Positions 13,381-15,524 of a DNA stretch of 35,901 nucleotides are shown piece by piece. This DNA is from Peptococcaceae bacterium (GTDB lineage Bacteria; Bacillota; UBA994). The position numbers and the translations under genes are program-made. Location of the stretch: assembly GCA_018334055.1 (NCBI GenBank), contig JAGXSS010000054.1, positions 1-35,901 of the forward strand, written 5' to 3'. The notes under the pieces were generated by a model. The model searched no databases, was not told the origin of the DNA, and saw only the letters and a list, made by a program, of their open reading frames with translations. Each line of letters starts with the position of its first letter. The first letter of the stretch is position 1.

Positions 13381-13389
13381 AGTATAACA
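13381..13389 (-). promoter_or_regulatory. Extended -10 promoter element before the microprotein
   Basis: On the minus strand the sequence TGT TATACT forms an extended -10 box (TGnTATACT). No good -35 box is seen at 17 bases. The element sits exactly at the edge of the left copy of the 51-bp direct repeat, about 38 bases upstream of the microprotein start. Confidence 0.45.
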
Positions 13390-13435
13390 TGCGCCTAGCT
13401 TGTGGGAAATAGCAGGTCCTGAAAATCTGCCGGCG
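13385..13435. repeat. Left 51-bp direct repeat: duplicated 3' end of the RluA-type gene
   Basis: This segment is 49/51 identical to 14615-14665, where the sequence is the last codons, the stop and 10 downstream bases of the pseudouridine synthase gene. Read on the minus strand it still encodes PADFQDLLFPTS and a TAG stop, but is detached from the gene body. It bounds the RAYT/REP island. Confidence 0.9.
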
Positions 13436-13449
13436 AGACACCGCCCCGG

Positions 13450-13530
13450 GTAGCGGCGTGACATGGCACGCCGACCCCATATACGGCGTGCCGGTTTTCC
13501 CTAGGTAGCGGCGTGACATGGCACGCCGAC
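13450..13530 (+). repeat. REP hairpins A and B (direct pair)
   Basis: Two identical 26-nt elements lie at 13450-13475 and 13505-13530. Each reads GTAG, stem CGGCGTG, loop ACATGG, stem CACGCCG, then AC. The spacer between them contains a degenerate hairpin (CGGC-GT-GCCG at 13484-13493). The whole 81-bp block recurs nearly unchanged at 14479-14559. Confidence 0.9.
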
Positions 13531-13569
13531 CCTCCCCGGTCGTAACCATGATGGAAAAACCACGCCGAG

Positions 13570-13654
13570 GTCGCCGGCTTTTGTGCCGGCGCTACAACCT
13601 CCCGTGTGGGTAGTGGCACCCTTCCCAAGTAGCGGCGTGACATGGCACGCCGAC
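13570..13654. repeat. Inverted REP doublet 1 (C and D)
   Basis: Element C (13570-13595) is on the minus strand: GTAG, stem CGCCGGC, loop ACAAAA, stem GCCGGCG, AC. Element D (13629-13654) is on the plus strand with stem CGGCGTG. The two GTAG feet face each other across 33 bp. The 85-bp layout is repeated exactly in two further doublets. It resembles a REPIN, but the two halves have different stems. Confidence 0.88.
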
Positions 13655-13682
13655 CTGACACCCTCCCCCGGTCCGTAACCGA

Positions 13683-14222
13683 TCAAATAAAATCCCCAAT
13701 ATTCTCGGGCGATTCCCGCTCCAACTCCCACCGGAGAGGGTTGTTTTCAATGTACCGCCTAATTAGGTGCAGTGACTTCTCATTCCGAATGATGTGGTCG
13801 TAAAAACGTGGCTGCCATGCAAACTCGTTGTAACCGTTTTCCCGGCACCACTTAGTCACTGCTGCCTTGTAGCATGACAATACATGGCCTAGGGAACCGC
13901 CCTTGGGTTTAGAAATGGCACTAAGTCCGTGAATAGTGGTTTTTCTCCCGGAAGGGGTGTTATCAAAGATTAGAATGGCGTGAATGTGATTAGGCATTAC
14001 GACGAAACAATCGATTTCTACATGGGAGAAGTGATCATGAATTGCTCCTAGGCATACCTGTGCGTGTTCTCCCATGCGAGAAAGATGCATGTGTCCATCT
14101 TGGATCATCCCGAAATGAGGGTGTTGGTCCTTGGTGCAGATAGTGATGTAGTAATAAGCTCCTTGGGTATAGTCCCAGCACTCTAAGCGGGTAGTGGTTC
14201 TGCGACACTTCATCCAGTCCAT
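13683..14222 (-). CDS. REP-associated tyrosine transposase (RAYT), Y1/HUH family
   Basis: The 179-residue protein belongs to the Y1_Tnp (IS200-like) superfamily. The start of the fold reads YYYITICTKDQHPHFG, and the HUH metal site is VVMPNHIHAIL with H79 and H81. The region WQPRFYDHIIRNEKSL with Y141 supplies the probable catalytic tyrosine, and RRYIENNPLRW is the usual C-terminal helix. RAYTs are single-copy, domesticated relatives of IS200 transposases that bind and cut REP hairpins at a GTAG-type foot in single-stranded DNA. The ATG start has AGGAGGT five bases upstream. The gene is intact, and nine GTAG-footed hairpins surround it, which strongly supports the RAYT assignment over an ordinary IS200 transposase. 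Confidence 0.9.
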   Translation of the reverse strand: MDWMKCRRTTTRLECWDYTQGAYYYITICTKDQHPHFGMIQDGHMHLSRMGEHAQVCLGAIHDHFSHVEIDCFVVMPNHIHAILIFDNTPSGRKTTIHGLSAISKPKGGSLGHVLSCYKAAVTKWCRENGYNEFAWQPRFYDHIIRNEKSLHLIRRYIENNPLRWELERESPENIGDFI

Positions 14223-14269
14223 TATCCACCTCCTATATTAGAGGTTTACGCCGCGGATGTATGGCCGAG

Positions 14270-14354
14270 GTCGCCGGCCCTTGTGCCGGCGCTACAACCT
14301 CCCGTGTGGGTAGTGGCACCCTTCCCAGGTAGCGGCGTGACATGGCACGCCGAC
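14270..14354. repeat. Inverted REP doublet 2 (E and F)
   Basis: Element E (14270-14295, minus) has the CGCCGGC stem with one changed loop (ACAAGG). Element F (14329-14354, plus) has the CGGCGTG stem. The spacing and total length (85 bp) equal doublet 1. It lies just upstream of the transposase start. Confidence 0.88.
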
Positions 14355-14419
14355 CCTACCCGCCGTGTAACCCCGTGTAACCCTATGACCGCCCAGTCCG
14401 TAACCCCAGCACCGCCGAG

Positions 14420-14504
14420 GTCGCCGGCTTTTGTGCCGGCGCTACAACCTCCCGTGTGGGTCGCGGCACCCTTCCCAGGTAGCGGCGTGACATGGCACGC
14501 CGAC
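14420..14504. repeat. Inverted REP doublet 3 (G and H)
   Basis: Element G (14420-14445, minus, CGCCGGC stem) and element H (14479-14504, plus, CGGCGTG stem) repeat the 85-bp layout. The spacer differs from doublet 1 in only a few bases. Confidence 0.88.
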
Positions 14505-14559
14505 CCCATATACGGCGCGCCGGTTTTCCCCAGGTAGCGGCGTGACATGGCACGCCGAC
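14479..14559 (+). repeat. REP hairpins H and I (copy of the A-B block)
   Basis: This 81-bp block (H at 14479-14504, I at 14534-14559) is nearly identical to 13450-13530, including the degenerate hairpin in the spacer. The island therefore has similar ends, 1,029 bp apart in direct orientation. Confidence 0.88.
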
Positions 14560-14614
14560 CCCGTATTGACAAGGACATGCCGTATTTTTTTGCGAGGGGC
14601 TGTCAACGTCGGGG

Positions 14615-14665
14615 TAACATGCGCCTAGCTTGTGGGAAATAGCAGGGCCTGAAAATCTGCGGGCG
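14615..14665. repeat. Right 51-bp direct repeat (in-gene copy)
   Basis: This copy spans the last codons and stop of the RluA-type gene and 10 bases beyond. It matches 13385-13435 at 49 of 51 positions in the same orientation. Confidence 0.9.
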
Positions 14666-15524
14666 GTGGCACGAAGAGAGATATTCTCTCGCCGGAAACC
14701 GGGTGCCTAAACGACTGCCAGGCGGCGTGTAAAGCTTGCCTGGAGATCAGTGGCGAAAATGATCCGTAGACCTCATCCCCTACTAACGGGTGTCCGATGT
14801 GGGCCATGTGTACCCTGACTTGGTGGGTGCGGCCGGTAATGAGGGTGACTTTTTGCAGGGTGTTATCGCCATGCACGGCGATTTTCTCCCAGAGCGTGAT
14901 CGCCTGCTGCCCCTCGGGAGATACGACCCGGGCGCGACTGCCGCCCCCGACCCGCATGATTGGCGCATCGATGCGGCCGGAATCGGCCTGTACCACTCCG
15001 GTAACCATGGCCAAGTAGCTCTTTTGCCACTCACCGGAACTATGCTCCGCAGTGAGGACGGCTTGCACATGGGGGTTCTTGGCCCAGAGGACCAGCCCCG
15101 AGGTGTCGCGGTCCAAGCGGTGAACGGGGCGGACGATGAGGCTTTGTCCGGTCTTGGCATAGTGGGCCACAAGGGCGTTCGCCAAGGTGCCCGCCAAATA
15201 GCCTTTGGTGGGGTGGACCACCATGCCCGGGGGTTTGTTAATGACGATGAGGTGCTCGTCTTCAAAGGTGATATCTAAATGGACCTCCTCGGGCAAAAGA
15301 TCTTGTTGCCTTTCTTCGCGCAGGACAACAGTCAATCTATCCCCCGATCGAACGAGATCTTTTAGGTACACGGGGAGGCCGTTATTTTCGACCGTTCCGC
15401 TACGCTTCAGCCTGATTAAAGTCTGGCCTGACATACCGAGGCGCGTGGTTAGGACCTGGCTGACCTTTTTCTGATTGTCCTCGGCGCCGACGGTGTAAGT
15501 GAAGCGATGTTCTGCTGCCGCCAT
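14625..15524 (-). CDS. RluA/RluD-family pseudouridine synthase
   Basis: This 299-residue enzyme isomerises uridine to pseudouridine in RNA, probably 23S rRNA. An S4-like RNA-binding domain covers roughly residues 15-75 (VSQVLTTRLGMSGQTLIRL). The catalytic domain shows VINKPPGMVVHP, the active-site motif RPVHRLDRDTSGL with the catalytic aspartate, and ITGRTHQVRVHMAHIGHPLVGD near the end. These are standard for the RluA/C/D group, and sequence alone does not settle the target site. It starts one base after the permease stop codon and is the last gene of a three-gene minus-strand operon. Its final 12 codons and stop are duplicated 1.23 kb away beyond the RAYT island. Confidence 0.95.
   Translation of the reverse strand: MAAAEHRFTYTVGAEDNQKKVSQVLTTRLGMSGQTLIRLKRSGTVENNGLPVYLKDLVRSGDRLTVVLREERQQDLLPEEVHLDITFEDEHLIVINKPPGMVVHPTKGYLAGTLANALVAHYAKTGQSLIVRPVHRLDRDTSGLVLWAKNPHVQAVLTAEHSSGEWQKSYLAMVTGVVQADSGRIDAPIMRVGGGSRARVVSPEGQQAITLWEKIAVHGDNTLQKVTLITGRTHQVRVHMAHIGHPLVGDEVYGSFSPLISRQALHAAWQSFRHPVSGERISLFVPPPADFQALLFPTS

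Follow-up and report, generated by a model that had tools for sequence, protein, structure and literature searches.

The locus at positions 13436-14614 of the window (the whole stretch of 35,901 nucleotides that was analysed) raises the question of whether its RAYT (TnpAREP) gene and the GTAG-footed hairpins around it form one system, and what the presence of two hairpin classes means for such a system in Bacillota. On the evidence presented below, we are highly confident that the locus is a REPtron. It consists of a single-copy and selectively maintained RAYT flanked on either side by REPs of its own family, and it was inserted between two genes, one of the AI-2E family and one rluD-like. Judged by its motifs, the RAYT appears to be of the subclass 2.4 type, which corresponds to group 4 in the RAYT classification of Bertels et al. 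2017 (grouping according to PMC6006769).

Hairpin units around the transposase gene

The original prediction described nine GTAG-footed hairpins with a fixed 4-7-6-7-2 layout, and a pattern check of the window found this description to be exact to the base. All nine units around the transposase gene follow the 26-nt plan GTAG-7-6-7-AC, and the stems are complementary at 7 of 7 positions. In 20 first-order Markov shuffles of the window, no GTAG-7-6-7 hairpin was obtained, and the pattern common to the nine units had no match in 100 dinucleotide shuffles. A 222-kb sample of the other contigs of the genome contained one unrelated GTAG hairpin; this sample is free of REP clusters and describes the background only.

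Both predicted stem sequences, CGGCGTG and CGCCGGC, are present, in six and three units, respectively. Class A (GTAG, stem arms CGGCGTG and CACGCCG around the loop ACATGG, then AC) is always on the forward strand and is located at 13450-13475, 13505-13530, 13629-13654, 14329-14354, 14479-14504, and 14534-14559. Class B (GTAG, stem arms CGCCGGC and GCCGGCG around the loop ACAAAA, then AC) is always on the reverse strand and is located at 13570-13595, 14270-14295 (here with the loop ACAAGG), and 14420-14445. All nine loops begin with ACA, and stem positions 1, 2, 4, and 5 are identical between the two classes. When folded as single-stranded DNA, each class formed the stated hairpin with -8.7 to -10 kcal/mol, which beats nearly all shuffles.

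The transposase gene sits between hairpins 4 and 5, and REPs in both orientations are found on both of its sides. In addition, a 93-nt B-A heterodimer with the GTAG ends inward occupies 13563-13655 (forward strand) and is repeated at 14263-14355 and 14413-14505. The 29-nt spacers between direct class-A copies (13476-13504 and 14505-14533) each contain a palindrome (CGGCGTGCCG / CGGCGCGCCG), which resembles a class-A hairpin with the loop deleted and the foot lost.

REP population and the dimer rule

To estimate the abundance of the two classes, pattern searches allowing up to 3 mismatches were carried out in whole genomes. In the genome that carries the locus (G000, 2.38 Mb), there were 74 class-A and 53 class-B units, 127 in total, and reversed control patterns gave no match in the same search. 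The genome-wide search that had been suggested as a check therefore revealed a clear enrichment of these GTAG hairpins. The 127 REPs form 40 clusters on 30 contigs, from singles to arrays of up to 14, and many of them stand in tandem arrays of 5-14 copies. The clusters are located between genes. At first count, 41 of 92 REPs seemed to lie inside ORFs of at least 120 aa; these long ORFs proved to be translations of the arrays themselves.

The gene and the REPs occur together. G001, a genome of the same genus with a RAYT gene 89% identical to that of G000, contains 34 class-A and 18 class-B units, and in G002, also of this genus, neither the RAYT gene nor either REP class was found. Meanwhile, a hairpin nearly identical to class A was observed in G004, which belongs to another genus and has a RAYT only 36% identical with an REP family of its own. 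The sites are C63:3096-3121 (L063) and C67:35312-35337 (L098), and a compensated variant (CGGCGTA/TACGCCG) is included. These few isolated copies lie beside the different, larger REP family of G004, and either transfer or shared ancestry could account for them.

The hairpins could also be host elements, such as terminators, mRNA-stabilising sites or protein-binding sites, which are kept by host selection and have the transposase gene near them by chance. The hairpins lie outside genes, and REPs elsewhere have been credited with such roles (PMC3733652). However, they are missing from the gene-less G002, the arrays of 5-14 copies are unlike terminators, and different hairpin families accompany other RAYTs. 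We consider this explanation very unlikely for the population as a whole; some REP copies may have acquired a host role later.

The arrangement of the two classes follows a strict rule. In G000, the two units point in opposite directions in all 68 pairs of A-B neighbours and in the same direction in all 19 pairs of same-class neighbours; array copies are not independent of each other in these counts, and the rule is kept in all 20 two-class clusters. The mixed clusters of G001 obey the same A-B orientation rule, as judged from their coordinates, and neither genome showed an inverted A-A or B-B pair. Thus, classes A and B are the arms of one asymmetric heterodimer, not alternative stem classes. 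The spacers of G000 with GTAG inside are 10, 32-35, or 55-56 nt long; these three classes are about 23 nt apart in length and differ in sequence. The outward-facing spacers vary from 11 to 65 nt, and their ends are conserved.

In addition to the foot and the AC tail, the two arms share stem positions 1, 2, 4, and 5 and the loop start ACA. The latter is invariant in 127 of 127 copies, whereas loop positions 4-6 carry 59 changes (search allowing 3 mismatches). It had been proposed that the enzyme reads foot and geometry rather than stem sequence. This was too broad: foot and geometry are indeed common to both arms, but so are the four stem positions and ACA. Recognition by geometry only is weakened by the constancy of loop positions 1-3, and loop bases are known to be read by some RAYTs (PMC8266576).

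The stems of A and B differ at 3 of 7 positions, which would also fit two different enzymes, each served by one class, with one of the enzymes lost or not assembled. However, only one RAYT was found in the genome, the A and B partners keep a fixed relative orientation in two genomes, and the foot, a part of the stem, and the loop start are common to both. We therefore regard a second enzyme as extremely unlikely, and we return to a single RAYT acting on an asymmetric heterodimer. In a stricter form of this reading, heterodimers would be obligatory: the RAYT would tell A and B apart as left and right partners, and only inverted A-B pairs would be copied. If this is true, the lack of inverted A-A or B-B pairs in two genomes would follow from it. 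We think that this stricter form is rather doubtful. The preference for heterodimers over homodimers 'has no obvious explanation' in the literature (PMC3733652).

Two stem classes at one locus had also been put forward as a special feature, but they are not. Heterodimer arms are known in E. coli, where REP Y pairs with Z1/Z2 (PMC6006769), and in P. aeruginosa (GTAG-24, PMC3733652), and the same is found at other Bacillota loci. Furthermore, in a survey of RAYT loci, nearly half had more than one REP subfamily (PMC6006769).

The transposase gene, its insertion site and a proposed mechanism

The RAYT gene (13683-14222, reverse strand) encodes a protein of 179 aa with the HUH motif H79-I-H81, W136-Q137, D142, H143, R146, the predicted catalytic Y157, and N161. 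The Y1-family HUH motif (H79/H81) and tyrosine (Y157) are aligned to those of TnpAREP 4er8, and the fold matches too. This E. coli TnpAREP-REP complex was the sole PDB chain matched by sequence (E 0.0036), and the match includes the foot-reading region WQPRF..H.IRN. In the alignment, W136, Q137, D142, H143, and R146 correspond to W94, Q95, E100, H101, and R104, which are the residues of the GTAG-reading region in E. coli TnpAREP (PMC6006769), and Y157 and N161 correspond to Y115 and N119. The AlphaFold model (mean pLDDT 72.8) fits 4er8 with an rmsd of 2.7 A, and it also matches IS200/IS605 transposases. The NCBIfam profile REP_Tyr_transpos (REP-associated tyrosine transposase, NF047646) was matched with E 2.8e-16, at 59.7 bits, below the curated cut-off of 80. 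WQPRFYDHIIR (containing WQ) and YIENNP are motifs of the RAYT type, and the protein also contains NHIH. Judged by these motifs and by locus features of its relatives, the protein appears to match TnpAREP subclass 2.4, whose key motifs are NH[IFV]H, WQ, and YIxNNP (PMC6006769).

The least likely of the explanations is that the gene belongs to an ordinary IS200/IS605 insertion sequence, whose subterminal hairpins were left behind by deletions at the dispersed sites: the HUH/Y1 fold is in common and the genome does contain a genuine IS200 gene as well as truncated copies of it, but the protein has no match to the Pfam Y1_Tnp (IS200) profile at E 1e-3, it carries WQ and YIENNP where IS200 proteins are listed with W[TS] and Y[IV]ENQ (PMC6006769 Table 1), its gene is single-copy without several near-identical copies, and the 127 small heterodimer hairpins are not IS ends. 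In the tree, the protein clusters with other short RAYTs, separate from both the IS200 transposase of G000 and the long Y1 proteins, and the very long branch of E. coli RayT makes the fine placement unsure. An IS200 origin of the gene was thus ruled out by profile searches, by comparison with the genome's own IS200, and by the tree. The original prediction of a RAYT with its REPs, which had named a grouping with ordinary IS200 transposases as evidence to the contrary, is upheld by the motifs, the dispersed hairpins, and the non-IS200 grouping, alongside the REP profile match below the cut-off. The true IS200 transposase gene of G000 is located at C24:10129-10482 (L153), and IS200 fragments at the ends of contigs C9, C10, C17, C56, C65, and C103 suggest that more copies were broken by assembly.

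The RAYT gene has one copy in G000, and that of G001 occupies the same place beside rluD, as expected for a single-copy gene that is kept vertically. Between these two genes, dN is 0.056 and dS is 0.436. The resulting dN/dS of about 0.13 indicates that the RAYT gene is under purifying selection.

The block is placed between the AI-2E-family transporter gene and an intact rluD-like gene (14625-15524, reverse strand). In other members of the family, the AI-2E-family, rluD-like, and ABC permease genes are adjacent without an intervening RAYT. Therefore, the simplest explanation is that the block was inserted in the lineage that G000 and G001 share. At the left edge, the 3' end of the rluD-like gene is present a second time (13385-13435, forward strand), as about 46 nt of gene sequence followed by the remains of a class-B arm. 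The matching 3' end of the intact gene forms the right edge (14615-14665, forward strand). The 51-nt direct repeat made by these two segments exactly brackets the edges first given for the block, 13436-14614. In G001, this copy of the 3' end is followed directly by one half of a class-B hairpin, with CTAC as its end (C186/L193, C101/L032). About 45 nt were apparently lost between GGCG repeats at the left edge of G000. Since IS200/IS605 enzymes do not make larger target duplications (PMC2817692), the direct repeat is likely to come from a template switch or from a break at a hairpin during growth of the cluster.

As for the mechanism, we infer binding, cleavage, strand transfer, and mobilisation from the enzymes of E. 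coli, Stenotrophomonas, and Marinomonas. These three enzymes cut and rejoin single-stranded REP DNA, the foot helps to choose the cleavage site, and the identity of the REP is read through either the bulge or the loop (PMC8266576). By analogy, the RAYT studied here would most likely bind the hairpins as single-stranded DNA and read the GTAG foot together with the hairpin, of which ACA at the start of the loop is probably also read. The strand would then be nicked and rejoined by Tyr157 with the His79/His81 metal site. The hairpins are perfect palindromes with an invariant loop start, and reading of the loop would thus be the better guess for how REP identity is recognized in this family. What moves or is amplified is most likely the asymmetric dimer, in which a class-A hairpin is paired with an inverted class-B hairpin. 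Such dimers may have spread to many sites, some of which would then have grown into tandem arrays (BIMEs). That the dimer moves as a unit is suggested by its strict orientation rule and by the conserved ends of the spacers.

RAYT/REP systems in Bacillota and comparison with known systems

A family profile search found relatives in 15 of 199 Bacillota genomes, the present genome counted, and a close match beyond the genomes examined is the Bacillota MAG QLUC01000019. Most of the other Bacillota RAYT loci examined have GTAG hairpin families of their own, often with two oppositely oriented stem types, double-foot hairpins, or gene-internal hairpins. Double-foot and gene-internal REPs are found among both the Bacillota and the Chloroflexi relatives, and GTAG hairpins lie within RAYT genes of Bacillota, Chloroflexi, and Bacteroidales (L046, L047, L198, L200, L203, and L205). 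The hairpins of relatives mostly have 7-9-bp stems and 2-5-nt loops.

A survey in 2013 reported GTAG repeats from Proteobacteria, Cyanobacteria, Chloroflexi, and the PVC group, and Firmicutes were not among these phyla (PMC3733652). The subclass 2.4 gene type is patchy and scattered over various phyla (PMC6006769). The Bacillota host, which had been considered noteworthy, is indeed a less expected group, but it lies within the range already known for this subclass. The locus is a real and fairly typical case of a RAYT, a domesticated transposase, with its REPs, of a kind already known and in a less usual host group. For Bacillota, it contributes a clean, genome-wide population of REPs and the enzyme that goes with them, together with further RAYT/REP pairs across the phylum. 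Its most useful feature is the strict A/B heterodimer rule. With two well-separated classes and an invariant loop start, the system is a handy test case for heterodimer preference and for what the enzyme reads.

Among known systems, the subclass 2.4 REPtrons (Quentin et al. 2018, PMC6006769) share with the present locus the motifs NH[IFV]H, WQ, and YIxNNP, GTAG-footed REPs on both flanks, and low copy number. The length of the protein is also similar, with 179 aa here and a median of 194 in the subclass. The REPs of the subclass start the stem with three G-C pairs or have a double foot, and a gene-internal REP is frequent (PMC6006769). In contrast, the present copy lacks a gene-internal REP, and its REPs are single-foot, with a 7-bp stem and a 6-nt loop. 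The stem starts with CG here and with GGG in most relatives; the class-B stem is made of G-C pairs throughout (seven of seven), that of class A at its first five positions. Judged against the relatives, the bases ACATGG of the class-A loop could form an A-G mismatch and a C-G pair that close a 2-nt loop, which would give nine stem positions.

The E. coli K-12 rayT REPtron (Y/Z1/Z2) is alike in having two inverted REP types that build BIME arrays. Its enzyme belongs to subclass 2.2 and shows 21% identity across the structural alignment; W94, Q95, H101, R104, Y115, and N119 are identical here, and E100 is replaced by Asp. E. coli REPs have longer, bulged stems, whereas the stems here are perfect.

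The REPs of Stenotrophomonas and Pseudomonas are alike in combining a GTAG or GTGG foot with a short stem-loop (PMC3733652, PMC2817692). GTGG, rather than the GGAG given in the original prediction, is the alternative foot of known RAYTs (PMC2817692, PMC6006769). The published Smal2 REP of S. maltophilia (GGTAGCGCCGGGCCATGCCCGGCG) resembles the class-B plan. However, the enzyme of these genera is of subclass 2.5, their loops are shorter than here, and most Pseudomonas dimers consist of identical units.
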